From Burkholderiaceae bacterium (GTDB lineage: Bacteria > Pseudomonadota > Gammaproteobacteria > Burkholderiales > Burkholderiaceae_C), in assembly GCA_016936875.1 (NCBI GenBank), contig JAFGXB010000134.1, positions 1 to 35,141 on the forward strand: 35,141 bases of DNA, given 5' to 3'. Below the pieces are notes generated by a model that saw nothing but the letters and a program-made list of their open reading frames with translations, did no database searches and had not been told where the DNA came from. The stretch's first letter is position 1; every line of letters starts with the position of its first letter. Made by a program: the position numbers and the translations under genes. Below, piece by piece: positions 3,058 to 11,989 of this stretch.

Positions 3058-3780
3058 TCACGCCCGCTGCGCCGTGCCCACCATGATCACCGGGCCTGTC
3101 GGCAAGCCGGTGGGCGAGCCACCTTGCGGTTCCACGCTCACGGCAAACGCCTTGGCCTGCGCCAGATGCGCCAGCGCTGCAGCGGGAATGGCGTACCGCG
3201 TCTGCCCTGCGACGACCACCCCGAGCGACACCGGCGCGCCCTGCGCGGGCAGCAGCCAGAGCTGATAACTCTTGCCGCTGGGTGCCGACATGGCGCCCAC
3301 CGCAGTCAGGGTGAGGGCGCCGTTGTGCACCGTCACCACGGCAGACTGCCCGCCTTTGCCGTGCATCAATGCAGCCATCTGCACCGAGGCGATGGCACTG
3401 CCAGGCGGATTCGGGCGTTGCACCAGAAGCACCACGGAGAACACCACAGCCGCCACCGCCACACCGCCAAGCAGCAGGGAAAGACGTCGCCATACCCGCG
3501 CGCCCCAGCCCGTCTCAGGCGGCACGGCGCGGCGCGGCGCATCAATCCGCGCGGCGATGCCTTGCCAAATGGCGTCAGCAGGCTGGCCGTATTCCGGTCT
3601 GCGGAGCAATGCGGCATCCAGCTGTTCGCGCCAGTGCTGCACCGCGCTGGCAAACGCCGGGCTCTGTTCCAGCAAACGCTGCGCACGGCGCTGCGCGGCC
3701 GGGCTGAGGCCACCAGTGAGCCAGTCAGCGGCCAGACGGTCGAGCAGATCGGCGTTACGGTAGCGCGCTGGCAGGCTCAT
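3058..3780 (-). CDS. Anti-sigma factor, RskA-type, single membrane span
   Basis: 240 residues. A cytoplasmic N-terminal part (1-90) has the LAADWLTGGLSPAAQRRAQ.. pattern of anti-sigma domains but no His-Cys-Cys zinc motif. One hydrophobic span lies at about 96-117, followed by a periplasmic anti-sigma-K-like domain (YQLWLLPAQG, PTGLPTGPVIMVG). Such proteins hold an ECF sigma factor at the membrane until regulated proteolysis or a signal frees it. The ATG overlaps the TGA of the sigma gene (ATGA at 3777-3780), so the two are translationally coupled, which supports the pairing. The inducing signal is not visible. Confidence 0.9.
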   Translation of the reverse strand: MSLPARYRNADLLDRLAADWLTGGLSPAAQRRAQRLLEQSPAFASAVQHWREQLDAALLRRPEYGQPADAIWQGIAARIDAPRRAVPPETGWGARVWRRLSLLLGGVAVAAVVFSVVLLVQRPNPPGSAIASVQMAALMHGKGGQSAVVTVHNGALTLTAVGAMSAPSGKSYQLWLLPAQGAPVSLGVVVAGQTRYAIPAAALAHLAQAKAFAVSVEPQGGSPTGLPTGPVIMVGTAQRA

Positions 3781-4340
3781 CGTGCGCCCTCGCCGAGGCA
3801 ATCGCGCAGCAGCAACACGGCGCGACGAATCAATGTCTTGACCGTACCCAGCGGCAGGGCACGCTCACGCGCCACCTCGGCATGGGTTTGCCCCAGCACA
3901 TAGGCCGCCGCGAGTACGTCACGCTGGCGGGGTGGCAACTGGCCCAGACAGTCCTCCATGTGTTGCCCCTGGAAGCCGGCTTCGAGCAGGGCTTCAGGCG
4001 TGCGGTGATCCGCAATTTCTGGCGGATTGTCATCCGCGTCAAGCTGCATGGGAACCAAAAACTGTGCCTCGCGTTTACTGGCACGCAGCCGGTCGAGGCA
4101 GGTATTGCGTACCAGGGCGGACAGCCACGCTTCGGGGCTGCCCAGATGCGGCCGGTAACTCGCCGCCTGGCCCCAGATTTTCACGTAGGCATCCTGCATG
4201 GCTTCTTCCGCCGCTGAGGTGTCGCGCAGCAGACGCAGGCAAATCGCCCAGGCCCGGCTCCGTGTGGCCGCATACAACTGGCTGAACGCATCGCGATCAG
4301 CCAGCGCGGTGTAGGCCAGCAAGGACTGCAAATCGGGCAT
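3777..4340 (-). CDS. ECF RNA polymerase sigma factor
   Basis: 187 residues, typical for group IV sigma factors. Region 2 spans about residues 17-70 (AFSQLYAATRSRAWAIC, then AEEAMQDAYVKIW, then ASYRP). Region 4 covers about 125-180 with the helix-turn-helix TPEAL..LGQLPPRQRDVL and HAEVARERALPLGTVKT. A short variable linker joins the two; regions 1 and 3 are absent. It would direct polymerase to promoters released by loss of the downstream anti-sigma factor. A ferritin-like gene lies 129 bases upstream on the same strand and is a candidate regulon member. The ribosome site is weak; an AGGAG lies about 29 bases upstream, too far for this ATG. Confidence 0.93.
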   Translation of the reverse strand: MPDLQSLLAYTALADRDAFSQLYAATRSRAWAICLRLLRDTSAAEEAMQDAYVKIWGQAASYRPHLGSPEAWLSALVRNTCLDRLRASKREAQFLVPMQLDADDNPPEIADHRTPEALLEAGFQGQHMEDCLGQLPPRQRDVLAAAYVLGQTHAEVARERALPLGTVKTLIRRAVLLLRDCLGEGAR

Positions 4341-4410
4341 GTGCTCTGGGGCGTGTGAGTGTTTGTCTCCTGTCGCGCAGCCGCACCGCAGCTTGCGAAT
4401 TTACAGGAGG

Positions 4411-4455
4411 ACGCGCGGCGCATGTTACCGAGAATGCTGCGCATCCGCCGCGCGT
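4411..4455 (-). other. Inverted repeat between ferritin-like and sigma genes
   Basis: ACGCGCGGCG (4411-4420) pairs perfectly with CGCCGCGCGT (4446-4455), a 10-bp G+C stem with a 25-base loop. It lies 15 bases after the stop of the ferritin-like gene and about 70 bases before the sigma start. No T-run follows on the minus strand, so it is not a standard intrinsic terminator. It could lower read-through into the sigma gene or stabilise the upstream message. Confidence 0.4.
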
Positions 4456-4469
4456 GCAAGCCCTGTCGA

Positions 4470-5072
4470 TCAGGCGATAAACGCGGCTGGCACCGGGTCT
4501 TTGCCCAACGCGTTGCGCAAAATGGCCCAGTGCATGGTTTCGTCGCCCATGATGCTGGCCGCCGCCTTGGCCAGGTCTTTGTTATGAAACTGCGGCACCG
4601 CACCCAGATAGGCGCTGGCCGCGCCCTTTTCCAGACCGGCGGCGAACTCCAGCACATCGGCCTGCGATTTGAGCGACGCGGTGGGAAAGCCATAGTCCGC
4701 CGGTTTCTTCGCCATGACCGGCGTGCCGCCGAGTTTGCTGATGGTGGACGACAACACCTCGGCATGCGCCTTGTGCTGGCCCTGGAATTTCACGGCAACC
4801 GCCAGCACGGGCTTTTCCAGCAGCCCGGACTCCGCGCCCACCTGATAGGCGGCGATGGCCTGGTATTCCAGCCCCAGCGCGGTGTTGAGTATGGCGATGT
4901 CGTCGGAGGTCGATGCGGACATCGTCCCGGCCCAGCTCGTCACCGGCGCCAGGGCGCTGGACGCCGCGAGGCCTGCGGCGAACAGTCCGCCGACGCGGAA
5001 AAACTGCCGACGATCGGCGCCTTGCGCGTCTGCGCCCTGGGGGTTTGAAGCGGTGTCTTGTGTGCGTTGCAT
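4470..5072 (-). CDS. TAT-exported ferritin-like protein
   Basis: 200 residues. A twin-arginine signal is evident: ADRRQFFRVG at about 20-29, a hydrophobic AAGLAASSALA stretch, and a likely cut near TSWAG (~49). The mature part is a four-helix ferritin-like bundle, with candidate metal ligands in GLEYQAIAAYQ, KAHAEVL, LEKGAASAYLG and GDETMHWAIL. Exported members of this Ferritin_2-like group are poorly characterised; a diiron or stress role is possible. The start at 5072 is preferred because AGGAG sits 8 bases before it. It heads the minus-strand block with the ECF sigma and anti-sigma genes, and is divergent from the octaheme cytochrome gene. Confidence 0.85.
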   Translation of the reverse strand: MQRTQDTASNPQGADAQGADRRQFFRVGGLFAAGLAASSALAPVTSWAGTMSASTSDDIAILNTALGLEYQAIAAYQVGAESGLLEKPVLAVAVKFQGQHKAHAEVLSSTISKLGGTPVMAKKPADYGFPTASLKSQADVLEFAAGLEKGAASAYLGAVPQFHNKDLAKAAASIMGDETMHWAILRNALGKDPVPAAFIA

Positions 5073-5326
5073 GATGCATTCTCCTGGGGGATCAAAGCGG
5101 ATCACAGCGCGCCCAACGCGGCTGTTGCAGGAATTACGCCGCGCCGCGGCAATTGGATTCAAGCCAGGATGCGAGTCACCGCATTCCTTTATCCCAGATC
5201 AAAAGATTGCAATTCCGGCATATCGGATTTCAGAGTTTTTGCGTCTTGTCACATTTGAAACAAGCTGTGTCCGTGATGATGCGCGCCTCGACCAAATTGT
5301 TTCGCACACCGCCTGGAGTGTCCGTC

Positions 5327-7078
5327 ATGCCGTTTTCCCGCCGTTTCGCGCCCACCGCCCGCGCCCGCATTGCCTACTGGCTTCGCCTGGTCTCGGTGTG
5401 CGCCGTCGCCATCAGCGCCCCGCCCGTTTTGGCCAATCCGTCGTCGGCGCCGATGTCGGCGCAAGCCGAGGTGGACATTCACTCGCCCTACCGCGTGGTG
5501 CCCAAAATGCCCACCGGGTCAAAAGCCACCGCGGATCACAGCAAGTTCAAGGAACTGCAGGGCCCGTTCAAAAGCGGCCCGGAAGTCACCGCGGCCTGCC
5601 TGAGCTGCCACACCGAGGCGGCCAAGCAGATCAAGGGCACCATTCACTGGAAGTGGGAAGAGGTGGAGCAGGACTCCAAGCGCATCGTCGGCAAGAACAA
5701 GGTGATGAACAACTTCTGCGTGTCCACACCGAGCAACCAGCAGTTCTGCACCGGCTGCCATGTGGGTTATGGCGATGCGAAGTCTGGGGAATTCGTCTCA
5801 TTCAGCAAGCGCCCGGACACCGATGTGGACTGTCTGGTCTGCCATGACCAGACCGGTAAATACACCAAGGCGCCCTATCAGTCAGGCAACCCGCCGACCA
5901 CCCGCATTGAAATGCCGCCAGGATCGGGCAAGTTCATCGAGCCGATTGATCTCGCCGTGATCGCCCAGCATGTGGGCGAACCCTCGCGCGCCAACTGCGG
6001 CACATGCCACTTCAACGGCGGCGGCGGCGACGGGGTGAAGCATGGCGACCTCGACAGCTCGCTGATCAATCCGCCCAAATCCGTCGACGTGCATATGGCC
6101 AAGGACGGCCTGAACTTCCAGTGCCAGACCTGTCACGCCACCGGCGGACATGAGGTGAGCGGCAGCCACTACAAGCTCGACGCCAAGCATGAAGGCGGCC
6201 AGTATGTGCGCGGCAGTCAACACAATATGGGCAGCGCCGCAAGCTGCCAGTCCTGCCACGGCGACACGCCGCACAAGGGCAGTCTGGCGCAGGATCTGAA
6301 CATGCACACCCGCAACATCGCCTGCCAGACCTGCCACATCCCCGAATTCGCGCGCGGCGGCGTGCCGACCAAGATGGAGTGGGACTATTCCAAGGCCGGT
6401 CAGCGCGGCCCGGACGGCAAGCCGCTGGTCCTCAAGGATGAACATGGCCATCCCACTTATCTGGGCATCAAGGGCCAGTTCAAGCTGGGCGAAGACGTGG
6501 TGCCCGACTACACCTGGTTCAACGGCGCGGTGAAGTGGATGAATATTGGCGAGAACGCCGTGCCGAACAAGGACGGAGTGATCGCCATCAACGAGTATGG
6601 CGGCAGCCCGACCGATGGCAAGTCACGCATCTGGCCGGTGAAAACCATGAAAGGCACACAGCCTTACGACCCGGAACTGCACCGCCTGCTCGCCATCCAC
6701 AACGCGGGCTTCGACGATGCGGCTTACTGGCACACCATGGACTGGCAAAAATCCATCGCCGCCGGCATGAAGGAGGCCGGTTTGCAATGGTCGGGCAAGT
6801 ATGAATTCGTCAAGACCACCACCACCTGGCCAATCACCCATATGGTCGCGCCAAAAGACAAGGCGCTGAGCTGCGCGCAGTGCCACACCAACAACGGTCG
6901 GCTGGAGAAGATCGACGGCATCTACATCCCGGGACGCAGCAAGGATCACCAGACCTGGATCGAAACCATCGGCCTGGGCATCGCCGGTCTGAGTCTGGCC
7001 GGGGTCATGGTGCATGGCGGCATCCGCAGTGTCATGTGGCTGCGCCGCCGCAACAAACCCGGCAGCAAGAGCCACTGA
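5327..7078 (+). CDS. Octaheme c-type cytochrome, tetrathionate reductase (OTR) family
   Basis: 583 residues from the ATG at 5327, chosen because GGAG sits 8 bases upstream and a clean Sec signal follows (Arg-rich start, hydrophobic core, VLANP cleavage region near 36). An earlier in-frame ATG at 5276 lacks a ribosome site. Eight CXXCH motifs are present: CLSCH (from residue 91), CTGCH, CLVCH, CGTCH, CQTCH, CQSCH, CQTCH and CAQCH. Spacing and the HIPEFARGG region fit the octaheme tetrathionate reductase family known from Shewanella; related octahemes also reduce nitrite or hydroxylamine in vitro. A C-terminal hydrophobic span (about 545-568) followed by basic residues would anchor it in the inner membrane facing the periplasm. 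The next gene encodes a cytochrome b partner. Confidence 0.88.
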   Translation: MPFSRRFAPTARARIAYWLRLVSVCAVAISAPPVLANPSSAPMSAQAEVDIHSPYRVVPKMPTGSKATADHSKFKELQGPFKSGPEVTAACLSCHTEAAKQIKGTIHWKWEEVEQDSKRIVGKNKVMNNFCVSTPSNQQFCTGCHVGYGDAKSGEFVSFSKRPDTDVDCLVCHDQTGKYTKAPYQSGNPPTTRIEMPPGSGKFIEPIDLAVIAQHVGEPSRANCGTCHFNGGGGDGVKHGDLDSSLINPPKSVDVHMAKDGLNFQCQTCHATGGHEVSGSHYKLDAKHEGGQYVRGSQHNMGSAASCQSCHGDTPHKGSLAQDLNMHTRNIACQTCHIPEFARGGVPTKMEWDYSKAGQRGPDGKPLVLKDEHGHPTYLGIKGQFKLGEDVVPDYTWFNGAVKWMNIGENAVPNKDGVIAINEYGGSPTDGKSRIWPVKTMKGTQPYDPELHRLLAIHNAGFDDAAYWHTMDWQKSIAAGMKEAGLQWSGKYEFVKTTTTWPITHMVAPKDKALSCAQCHTNNGRLEKIDGIYIPGRSKDHQTWIETIGLGIAGLSLAGVMVHGGIRSVMWLRRRNKPGSKSH

Positions 7079-7114
7079 TCCGCCCCGCATCGCAGGCACT
7101 TCGAGGAATTCGTC

Positions 7115-7780
7115 ATGTCACACAAAAAACACGTCATTCTGTTCAAGCGTTTCGAGCGCTTCTGGCACTGGAGCCAGGCCGGACTCATCATCCTGCTGAT
7201 GCTCTCTGGCTTTCGCATCCACGGCCTGTATGACCTCGGCGTGCAGTTCCAGACCGCGCTGCGCGTCCATACGGTGGCGGCCTGGACACTGGTGGTGCTG
7301 TGGGTCTTCGCCATCTTCTGGCACTTCACCACGGGGGAATGGAAGCAGTACATCCCGACCTTCGACAAGATTTTTCTGGTTGCCCGGCATTACGCCTGGG
7401 GCATGTTCCGCGGTGAAGAACACCCCTATCAGCAAAGCGTTGCGCGCAAACACAATCCGCTGCAACGTCTGGCCTATCTGTGGGTCAAGCTGATGATCAA
7501 CCCCATCATCTGGATCAGCGGCATCTGGCTGCTGTTCTTTGCCGACTGGGGCGCCTGGCCCGTCTGGCAGCAATGGGGCATCAGCCTGCAGACTGTGGCC
7601 TGGGCGCACACCATTGGCGCCTACATGATGCTGATCTTTTTCATCATCCACGTCTATCTCACCACCACCGGCCACACCCCGATGGCGCACATCAAGGCCA
7701 TGATCCGCGGCTATGAGGACGAACCTGTGCACCACCATCCGCGCACCAAGGCGGCGCAGAAATCGGCAGAAAACGCCTGA
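7115..7780 (+). CDS. Membrane cytochrome b (cytochrome b561/thiosulfate reductase gamma type)
   Basis: 221 residues with four predicted membrane helices at about 18-36, 52-74, 130-150 and 170-190. Histidines placed to bind two b hemes are seen in RFWHWSQAG, RVHTVAAW, FWHFTTG, WAHTIGAY and FIIHVYLT. Proteins of this class pass electrons between the quinone pool and a periplasmic redox partner. GAGG lies 9 bases before the start, and the gene is 36 bases after the octaheme cytochrome, so the pair most likely forms a quinol-to-octaheme (or reverse) complex. The His-rich tail (VHHHP) is not a known heme motif. Confidence 0.9.
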   Translation: MSHKKHVILFKRFERFWHWSQAGLIILLMLSGFRIHGLYDLGVQFQTALRVHTVAAWTLVVLWVFAIFWHFTTGEWKQYIPTFDKIFLVARHYAWGMFRGEEHPYQQSVARKHNPLQRLAYLWVKLMINPIIWISGIWLLFFADWGAWPVWQQWGISLQTVAWAHTIGAYMMLIFFIIHVYLTTTGHTPMAHIKAMIRGYEDEPVHHHPRTKAAQKSAENA

Positions 7781-7840: not shown

Positions 7841-10800
7841 TCACACCAGAACGCGCTCGATTCCGCCGTTGTTCGCCGCCTTGACGTACTCGGTCATCCA
7901 GTCTTCACCGATGAGGTGACGCGCCATTTCGATGACGATGTAGTCGGCCTCGAGCAAGCCGTGCTGCAGATCGTTGCCATAGCGTGTGAGCCCCTGCAGG
8001 CAGGACGGGCAGGAGGTGAGGATTTTGATGTCGCCGGAGAAACCGTCGGCGCGCAGCGCCAGTTCGTTCTTGCGCAGCTCCTCTTCCTTGCGGAAACGCA
8101 CTTGCGTGGCGATGTCCGGGCGCGAGATGCCGAAAGTGCCGCTCTCGCCACAGCAGCGCTCGCTCTTGCGCACGTCGTCGCCGAGCAGCGCCTTCACCGT
8201 CTTCATCGGCTCCTGCGTTTTCATCGGGCTGTGACAAGGGTCGTGATACAGATACTTGACCGCGCCAGAAGCTCCGCCCGGCGTGAGGCTGTAGCCCTTC
8301 TCCAGCAGGAATTCGTGGATGTCGATGATGCGGCAGCCCGGAAAGATTTTCTCGAATTCGTAGCCCTGCAACTGGTCGTAGCAGGTGCCGCAGCTCACCA
8401 CCACGGTCTTGATGTCGAGATAGTTGAGGGTGTTGGCCACGCGGTGGAACAGCACCCGGTTGTCGGTGATGATTTTCTCGGCCTTGTCGAACTGGCCCGA
8501 GCCCCGCTGCGGATAGCCGCAGCACAGATAGCCCGGTGGCAGCACCGTCTGCACCCCGGCGTGCCACAGCATGGCCTGCGTCGCCAGCCCCACCTGGCTG
8601 AATAGCCGCTCCGACCCGCAACCGGGGAAATAGAACACCGCCTCGCTGTCCACCGAGGTGCCACGCGGGTTGCGGATGATGGGCACGAAGTCCTTGTCTT
8701 CGATGTCGAGCAGCGCGCGCGCGGTTTTTTTGGGCAGCCCGCCGGGCATGGGCTTGTTGATGAAGTGAATGACCTGCTCACGCATCGGCGGTTTGCCGAC
8801 GGTGAGCGCCGGGTGCGCCGTCTGCGCCCTGGCCACCGGCTTGAGCAGACGCGTGGCCAGCCGCTGTGCCTTGAAGCCCACGCCCACCATGGCGCTGCGC
8901 ACCAGCTTGATGGTCTGCGGCTTGGAGGCGTTGAGAAAGAACATGGCCGCCGCGTTGCCGGGCTTGAAACTCTTTTTGCCCATCTTGCGCAGCAGGTTGC
9001 GCATATTCATGGTCACATCGCCGAAGTCGATGTCCACCGGGCAGGGGGTCACGCATTTGTGACACACGGTGCAATGGTCGGCCACGTCCTCGAACTCTTC
9101 CCAGTGGCGGATGCTCACGCCGCGCCGGGTCTGCTCCTCGTAGAGAAACGCCTCGATCAGCAGCGAGGTGGCCAGAATTTTGTCGCGCGGCGAATACAGC
9201 AGATTGGCGCGCGGCACATGGGTGGCGCAGACGCTTTTGCACTTGCCGCAGCGCAGGCAGTCTTTTACCGACGCGCTGATGGCGCCGATGTCGCTTTGCT
9301 GCATGATGAGCGATTCAAAACCCATCAGGTTGAAGCTGGGCGTGTAGGCGTTGCGCAGATCGGCGGGATGCGCCGGATCGTCGAGCAATTTTCCTTTGTT
9401 GAAACGCCCCTCGGGATCGACCTCGCGCTTGTAAGCGCGGAACGCGCCAATCTCGTCGTCGGTGAGGAACTCCAGCTTGGTGATGCCGATGCCGTGCTCG
9501 CCCGAGATCACTCCACCCAGACTGCGCGCCAGGGCCATGATGCGGGCCACGGCGTCGTGCGCCTGCTGCAGCATGGCGTAGTCGTCGGAATTGACCGGGA
9601 TGTTGGTATGCACATTGCCGTCGCCCGCATGCATATGCAGCGCCACCCAGGCGCGGCTCTTGAGCACGCGCTGGTGAATGGCATCAATCTCGCGGCGCAA
9701 GGGTTCGAACAAGCCGCCGGAGAACACCGCGGCCAAGGGTTTGCGCAACTCGGCCTTCCACGAGGCGCGCAGCGCGTGATCTTGCAGCAGATGGAACAAG
9801 GTGCGATCTTCGCTCCCCCCAGCCGGCAGCGCCAGCAGGGCAGGCGACAGGGCGCGCTGCGCATCGGTCAGCGCCACCAAAGGCATGTCGAGCTGATCGA
9901 GGTAGAACGACCAGCGCGCATGCACTGCGGCAAGCAGTTCCAGCGCCTGGGCGCGCTTGGCCTCCAGGTCTTCCCTGGACAGCGCAGGCTCGCCATCGGC
10001 CAGCTCTTCGTTGCGCGCCAAAGGCAGCGGGCCGCGCAACACGCGATCAATCTCGGCCACCAGCGCCAGCTTGTTCTTCAGCGACAGCTCGACATTGATG
10101 TGTTCGATCCCGTCGACGTACTCGCCCATGCGCGGCAGCGGAATGACCACGTCTTCATTGATCTTGAAGGCGTTGGTGTGACGGGCGATGGCCGCAGTGC
10201 GCTTGCGGTCGAGCCAGAATTTTTTGCGTGACTCGGCACTCACCGCGATGAAGCCTTCGCCCACGCGCGCATTGGCCATACGCACCACTTCGGAAGCGGC
10301 GCGGGCCACGGCGGCTTCATCCTCGCCAACGATATCGCCAAACAGCACCATTTTTGGCAGCGTGCCACGCGCGCTCTTGGTGGCATAGCCCACGGCTTTC
10401 AGGTAGCGGTCGTCCAGATGTTCCAGGCCCGCCAGAATGGCGCCGCCCGGCCGGTCATCGAGAAAGGTCTTGATCTCGACAATGCTGGGAATGGCCTCAC
10501 GCGCCTGGCCGAAAAACTCCAGGCAAACGGTGCGCACATGCGGCGGCATGCGGTGCAAAATCCAGCGGGCGCTGGTGATGATGCCGTCGCAGCCTTCTTT
10601 CTGCACGCCAGGCAGACCGGCGAGGAATTTGTCGGTCACGTCCTTGCCCAACCCTTCCTTGCGGAACTGCGCGCCGGGAATTTCCAGCAGACGGGTGTCG
10701 AGCGGCGTTTTGCCATCGGCGGCGAGGGTGCGAATTTCAAACCGCGCCACGGCCACATCGTGAATCTTGCCCAGGTTGTGATCGAGCCGCTCCACTTCCA

Positions 10801-11818
10801 CCCAGCGACCCTGCGGATCGACCATGCGCCAGGAGGCGAGATTGTCGATGGCCGTCCCCCACAGCACGGCCTTTTTGCCACCGGCGTTCATGGCCACGTT
10901 GCCGCCCACGCAGGAAGCATCGGCCGAGGTCGGATCGACCGCGAACACCAGACCGGCGGCCTCCGCCGCATCGGCCACGCGCTGCGTCACCACGCCGGCC
11001 GGGGTCTGGATGGTGGGCACGGGGTGGGACAAGCCGGGCAACTCCAGATACTCCACCGCGCCGATGCGGTCGAGCTTTTCGGTGTTGATCACCGCGCTCT
11101 TCCACACCAGCGGGATGGCGCCGCCGGTATAGCCGGTGCCGCCTCCGCGGGGGATGATGGTCAGACCGAGTTCGATACAGCCCTGCACCAGCCCGGCAAT
11201 CTCGTCTTCGCTGTCGGGGCAGAGCACGACAAAGGGATATTCCACCCGCCAGTCTGTGGCGTCCGTGACGTGACTCACTCGCGCCATGCCGTCGAAGCGG
11301 ATGGCGCCTTGCGCGCTGTGCCGCCCCAGCACCTTGCGGGTGCGCTGACGCAGCGCCGCAGCCTCGTCGAACCAGGCGGCGAAGGCGGCCACCGCAGCGC
11401 GGGCGCGTTCGAGCAATTGCCGCACCAGGGCGTCGCGCTGGGCTTGCGCGTGGTCGCTGTGCGCGCTGCTGTCGCGGCGGCGATCGATTTCGCGCAGGCG
11501 GTGCTCCAACGCACCAATCAGCGCGGCACGGCGTTTGCGGCTCTGCAGCAAATCGTCCTGAAGGAAAGGATTGCGCTGGACCACCCAGATGTCGCCCAGC
11601 ACCTCGTACAACATGCGTGCCGAACGTCCGGTACGTCGCTCCTGCCGCAACTGGTTGAGCCAGCCCCAGGCCTCGCTGCCGAGCAAGCGCATCACCACCT
11701 CGCGGTCGGAAAACGAGGTGTAGTTGTAAGGAATTTCGCGCAGGCGTGGGGCGGTATCGACCAAATCATGGCCCAGCGCAGGGAGCAAATCAGGAGCGTG
11801 TGAAGCGGGGGCGTTCAT
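7841..11818 (-). CDS. Giant FAD-linked dehydrogenase with Fe-S and CCG domains (DUF3683 type)
   Basis: 1325 residues. In order: a DUF3683-like N-terminal domain ([16 protein letters not shown] near 30-45); an FAD-binding 4 domain with [11 protein letters not shown] near 223; an FAD-oxidase C-terminal domain ending around 800 ([23 protein letters not shown]); two 4Fe-4S motifs, [11 protein letters not shown] near 852 and [12 protein letters not shown] near 914; then two CCG domains (CCGYP near 1098, CCGESG near 1221) as in heterodisulfide reductase and glycolate oxidase GlcF. It resembles GlcD plus GlcF fused, so it probably oxidises a 2-hydroxy acid and feeds electrons to a quinone or flavoprotein; the substrate is unknown. 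ATG 11818 is chosen since residues before it lack family similarity. Confidence 0.9.
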
Positions 11819-11989
11819 CGGAACGGCGTCCGGCAGGGGGACGGGGCAGATAAAACGCCATTGTAGGGAGCCCGGTATTTCCGTATGACAAGCACGCCAG
11901 CCGCGCATTCGTGAGAAGAATCACGCAAATCCGAGCCGCATGCGGCAGTGCAACAAGTAAGGGTAATCCCGTGCTTTTAAGCTGCGCGC

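Follow-up and report, generated by a model that had tools for sequence, protein, structure and literature searches.

The octaheme tetrathionate reductase (OTR) of Shewanella oneidensis (1SP3) is a soluble protein without an anchor, and Shewanella-type loci carry no cytochrome b. In orange Guaymas Beggiatoaceae, the OTR BOGUAY_2386 carries a helix at either terminus, its gene is followed by one for a cytochrome b, and the recombinant protein reaches 93 U/mg in tetrathionate reduction, a higher activity than with nitrite (PMC6449678). The pairing of an OTR with a cytochrome b is thus already known and published, since it is present in this assayed protein and was proposed in 2016 for Thermosulfurimonas dismutans (TDIS_1882/1883), whose periplasmic OTR is, in that proposal, linked to the membrane via a nearby cytochrome b (PMC4911364). 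Here, such a pair is described from a 35,141-nucleotide stretch of DNA, hereafter the window, of a Burkholderiaceae bacterium (contig JAFGXB010000134.1 of assembly GCA_016936875.1, positions 1 to 35,141, forward strand). The stretch comes from a Thiomonas genome: the closest loci to its OTR are those of Thiomonas, with identity of up to 94% across the whole protein. The pair probably constitutes a two-subunit inner-membrane enzyme for quinol-dependent tetrathionate reduction, encoded by the following elements:

5327-7078, + strand: octaheme cytochrome c of the OTR family, 583 amino acids from the ATG at 5327 (TIGR04315 and 1SP3 matches)
5327-5434, + strand: predicted Sec signal peptide (P0001 residues 17-52), judged by eye from the sequence
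5597-6886, + strand: heme core, with eight CXXCH codon sets at 5597, 5747, 5831, 5996, 6122, 6245, 6323 and 6872 (motif positions)
6038-6040, + strand: Lys254, the equivalent of 1SP3 Lys153 by alignment, 100% conserved in 125 sequences
6953-7054, + strand: C-terminal transmembrane anchor helix (residues 559-592), from hydrophobicity, AlphaFold and tail alignment
7115-7780, + strand: four-helix diheme-type cytochrome b, 221 amino acids (PF01292, E=2.8e-22)

The octaheme reading frame is contained in an open reading frame at 5153-7078 (+). An alternative start, the ATG at 5279, would give a product of 599 amino acids; the ATG at 5327 opens a plausible signal peptide with an arginine-rich n-region, a hydrophobic core and an AxA-type site, ending ...PPVLA/N. 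The eight CXXCH motifs (P0001 residues 107, 157, 185, 240, 282, 323, 349 and 532) are all invariant or nearly so among relatives and align with those of 1SP3. The protein matches TIGR04315 at 618.6 bits (cut-off 375), covering the full profile (1-440/440). 1SP3 was its sole strong match in a PDB sequence search with phmmer (E=3e-98) and the sole significant match to its model in a Foldseek fold search (E=4e-37). No HAO, ONR or MccA entry matched at E<1 in the PDB sequence search, where the other cytochrome matches were only a 19-bit stretch of cytochrome c554 and a 12-bit stretch of NrfA. Placement with HAO, ONR or MccA is ruled out by profile, sequence and fold, and the protein, judged by its sequence, belongs unambiguously to the OTR family, as the initial annotation had supposed.

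The likeness to the Shewanella enzyme comprises the family, the eight hemes, the fold and the positions of Lys153, Cys64 and Asn61. Mowat et al. (2004) reportedly identified Lys153 as the residue that ligates the catalytic heme of the Shewanella enzyme on its distal side, and its aligned equivalent, Lys254, is the putative lysine ligand here. Cys147 (1SP3 Cys64) and Asn144 (1SP3 Asn61) are likewise 100% conserved in the 125 sequences.

The initial annotation had also described a C-terminal span on the octaheme protein and a diheme-type cytochrome b following it, and both are borne out. There is a single hydrophobic span (residues 560-578, Kyte-Doolittle 1.65), located C-terminal of the last heme motif and followed by RRRNK, which by the positive-inside rule suggests that the anchor is oriented N-out/C-in; the AlphaFold model has one C-terminal helix at residues 559-592. 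The cytochrome b gene begins 36 bp past the octaheme gene on the same strand. Its product is modeled as a four-helix bundle (pLDDT, the predicted local distance difference test score, of 87) with four conserved histidines, which are the predicted heme ligands: among 112 homologues, H18 and H52 are conserved in 100%, H165 in 97% and H179 in 96%. Four helices and four histidines are what defines the PF01292 diheme group of the HyaC/FdnI type, and the nearest fold found by Foldseek is the cytochrome b of E. coli hydrogenase-1 (4gd3/6g94, probability 1.00, E ~0.006; aligned to HyaC). This cytochrome b appears to be the dedicated membrane partner of the octaheme protein.

Among 80 loci collected from bacterial genomes, cytochrome b directly follows OTR in all 75 with room on the contig. 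Because this set was gathered with peptides from the window, one of them taken from the tail, 399 genomes sampled evenly across Pseudomonadota were added and searched with the family profile; 45 of these genomes gave a match over the cut-off, and 29 loci were inspected. A tail helix is present in 25 of the 29, and a cytochrome b adjoins every one of these (25/25) and none of the remaining four (0/4). A further soluble OTR, fetched separately (L136), has no cytochrome b, and its genome also has an anchored OTR. All the Thiomonas loci examined have both genes intact, and the occurrence of the pair is therefore not due to chance. Anchored OTR is the common type, and the soluble Shewanella form is a minority among the inspected loci. 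The protein of the window, with its C-terminal transmembrane helix and adjacent PF01292 cytochrome b, is of the anchored type, in which cytochrome b is the invariable neighbor, and is not the soluble, solitary protein that would have spoken against the initial annotation. That annotation had taken the locus for a quinone-linked version of a soluble enzyme; we infer the quinone link with good support, but it is not an odd variant, since anchoring is the common form. In a tree constructed without the tail, the soluble OTRs, including 1SP3, fall on one side of a single branch (Shimodaira-Hasegawa-like approximate likelihood ratio test, SH-aLRT, 96-100). Repeated evolution of the soluble and anchored forms is ruled out by this one change on the tree.

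The anchor helix itself is conserved in an unexpected way for a simple tether, which would not need such residues: His579 (7013-7015, +) is invariant in all 116 anchored tails, of which 114 are distinct with a mean pairwise identity of 44%, and Arg583 (7025-7027, +) is present in 114 of the 116. Both are positioned toward the inner end of the helix. His579 resembles His275 in the C-terminal helix of FdnH from formate dehydrogenase-N (1kqf_B). FdnH His275 is taken to line the quinone site there, although a literature search for the FdnH quinone pocket found nothing to confirm it. When the anchor helix alone was searched against the PDB, nothing beyond chance matches came up. Neither a family-wide soluble/anchored split nor an invariant anchor His/Arg pair was found in a literature search that was mostly without subscription journals. 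It is tentatively suggested that anchored OTR and cytochrome b form a distinct quinol-linked respiratory complex, apart from the soluble Shewanella type, in which His579 and Arg583 would contribute to a quinone pocket or a shared heme b site, convergent with FdnH His275.

In the proposed mechanism, the octaheme subunit would be exported by Sec, face the periplasm and be tethered by its one C-terminal helix. Cytochrome b, whose architecture suggests quinone binding and quinol oxidation, would oxidize ubiquinol via its two membrane b hemes and pass the electrons on to the heme c chain of the octaheme core, where tetrathionate would be reduced at an OTR-type, lysine-ligated catalytic heme. His579 and Arg583 may pack against cytochrome b close to a heme b or to the quinone site, in the manner of the C-terminal helix of FdnH. 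A C-terminal helix is likewise present on the electron-carrying subunit of hydrogenase-1. E. coli FdnH/FdnI and HyaA/HyaC thus resemble the Thiomonas pair in combining a periplasmic electron-carrying subunit and C-terminal helix with a four-helix diheme cytochrome b. However, their relay is made from iron-sulfur clusters rather than heme c, and they oxidize their substrate and reduce quinone, the opposite direction to that proposed for Thiomonas. The midpoint of ubiquinone is about +100 mV. Since that measured for tetrathionate/thiosulfate, +198 mV (PMC5146829), lies above it, and MenD was not found over the cut-off in Thiomonas (the futalosine route was not searched), tetrathionate reduction driven by quinol would be downhill.

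Two described pairs come close to that of Thiomonas. BOGUAY_2386 has the same architecture, a likeness that is one of description rather than sequence comparison, but its neighbors include thiosulfate/polysulfide reductase subunits, whereas the Thiomonas pair stands alone. TDIS_1882/1883 (PMC4911364) has the same architecture and the same reading, in another phylum. The other features around the Thiomonas pair, and its second copy, are:

3058-5081, - strand: ferritin-like Ferritin_2 protein, extracytoplasmic function (ECF) sigma factor and RskA-type anti-sigma factor, upstream of and divergent from OTR
7841-11908, - strand: fusion of flavin adenine dinucleotide (FAD)-linked oxidase and Fe-S/CCG-type domains, 1355 amino acids, downstream and convergent, judged from sequence
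G000:C20:1-1692 (L002): second Thiomonas OTR, the copy of the window's genome being cut by the contig end; relatives at L123-L130, L132 and L134

The 1355-residue oxidase and the sigma block flank most Thiomonas OTR loci. The conserved Ferritin_2/ECF sigma/RskA block is possibly a stress regulon. It was ruled out as something the pair needs, since no such block was found next to the two genes in L009, and the functional unit is accordingly the two-gene pair. A promoter and terminator scan of the locus gave nothing above chance. The second OTR-cytochrome b copy, found in most Thiomonas genomes, is diverged (about 57% identical to the OTR of the window), anchored and has its own cytochrome b. 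Near it are a sulfide:quinone-reductase-like (SQR-like) flavoprotein and a secreted protein of about 260 amino acids without a Pfam or NCBIfam match.

Elsewhere, a secreted protein with three rhodanese domains is found near about 20 anchored OTR loci (e.g., L062:8825-9988), often with a monoheme cytochrome c. About 34 distinct loci (among L013-L082; e.g., L058:5236-5790) have, directly upstream of OTR, a DUF302 protein that bears a helix at its N terminus; these loci are mainly from sulfur and iron oxidizers, and DUF302 was not seen at Thiomonas loci. A DUF3373 porin is located downstream of anchored OTR at 15 loci (e.g., L056:2351-4144) and also occurs upstream of OTR, together with a cytochrome c, at Shewanella-type soluble loci (e.g., L143:7756-9516), making this outer-membrane porin a candidate route for tetrathionate across the outer membrane. 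The soluble OTR of G243 is followed by a 7-heme protein (L148:7145-9418), which points to another electron partner there, and in G246 a weak multiheme match lies about 1 kb away from the soluble OTR.

By analogy with its assayed relatives, the OTR of the window is most likely a tetrathionate reductase, and its physiological reaction would most likely be tetrathionate to thiosulfate, in a bacterium that cycles the two; reduction of nitrite or hydroxylamine would probably be a side activity. The converse, a quinol:nitrite or hydroxylamine reductase that makes ammonium or detoxifies N-oxides and acts on tetrathionate only incidentally, is unlikely, although the Shewanella and Beggiatoaceae enzymes both reduce nitrite in vitro (PMC6449678), and without it the 13 Thiomonas genomes would lack a nitrite-to-ammonia enzyme, as NrfA is found in none (0/13). 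Sulfur is favored over nitrogen by the neighbors, by the distribution in the genus and by the faster reduction of tetrathionate than nitrite by the Beggiatoaceae relative. OTR is present in all 13 Thiomonas genomes, whereas NarG is found in only 7 and is absent from both G000 and the near-closed G401 (two contigs, with completeness rated at 100%), which weakens the case for nitrate respiration as a necessary partner. The neighbors at other loci are of a sulfur type: rhodanese, the SQR-like protein and, in lucinid symbionts, SoxYZ (PMC11237559).

The enzyme could also run in the oxidative direction, as a thiosulfate:quinone oxidoreductase that makes tetrathionate and delivers electrons to the quinone pool. 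Thiomonas does oxidize sulfur compounds (SoxB in 11/13), the related diheme enzymes of the TsdA type can run both ways (PMC5146829), and DoxD, part of a known thiosulfate:quinone enzyme, was not found in the 13 genomes (0/13), so that a DoxDA-type link drops out and the role is left vacant. At +198 mV, however, electron transfer from the tetrathionate/thiosulfate couple to ubiquinone is uphill under standard conditions, the OTR activities found in the literature are all reductive, and SoxA/TsdA-type cytochromes (taken as one group, 13/13) are available for oxidation. This makes the oxidative role quite improbable; the initial annotation's hint in that direction finds no support here, and reduction is the better guess. 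Least probable is a reductase for polysulfide, sulfite or an organic disulfide, or else a general outlet for electrons in the periplasm, tetrathionate being only a surrogate. In its favor, subsets of loci have rhodanese, DUF302 and DUF3373 neighbors, and the two diverged copies in most Thiomonas genomes suggest different substrates, but the residues of the OTR active site are the same in both clades, and no OTR activity on these compounds was found in the literature searched.

Several observations nevertheless count against quinol-dependent tetrathionate reduction. No sulfur gene adjoins the locus of the window itself, and the single-chain OTR model has low pLDDT in the heme core. On the tree, the joint presence of helix and cytochrome b amounts to one event without independent repeats; it thus supports functional coupling of the two, but not as many independent cases. 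The OTR family reduces several substrates in vitro, and homology therefore does not fix the substrate. Finally, Thiomonas mostly lives on thiosulfate oxidation, which sits uneasily with a reductase.

Textbooks know OTR as the soluble enzyme of Shewanella, but most of the inspected Pseudomonadota members are anchored and have their own cytochrome b. The usual annotation as OTR therefore hides, in many sulfur and iron bacteria, what is probably a quinol-linked respiratory complex. The invariant histidine of the anchor offers a single point mutation by which the coupling between a multiheme enzyme and the quinone pool could be probed. The presence of OTR throughout the Thiomonas genomes also raises the question of why a thiosulfate-oxidizing genus keeps a tetrathionate reductase.
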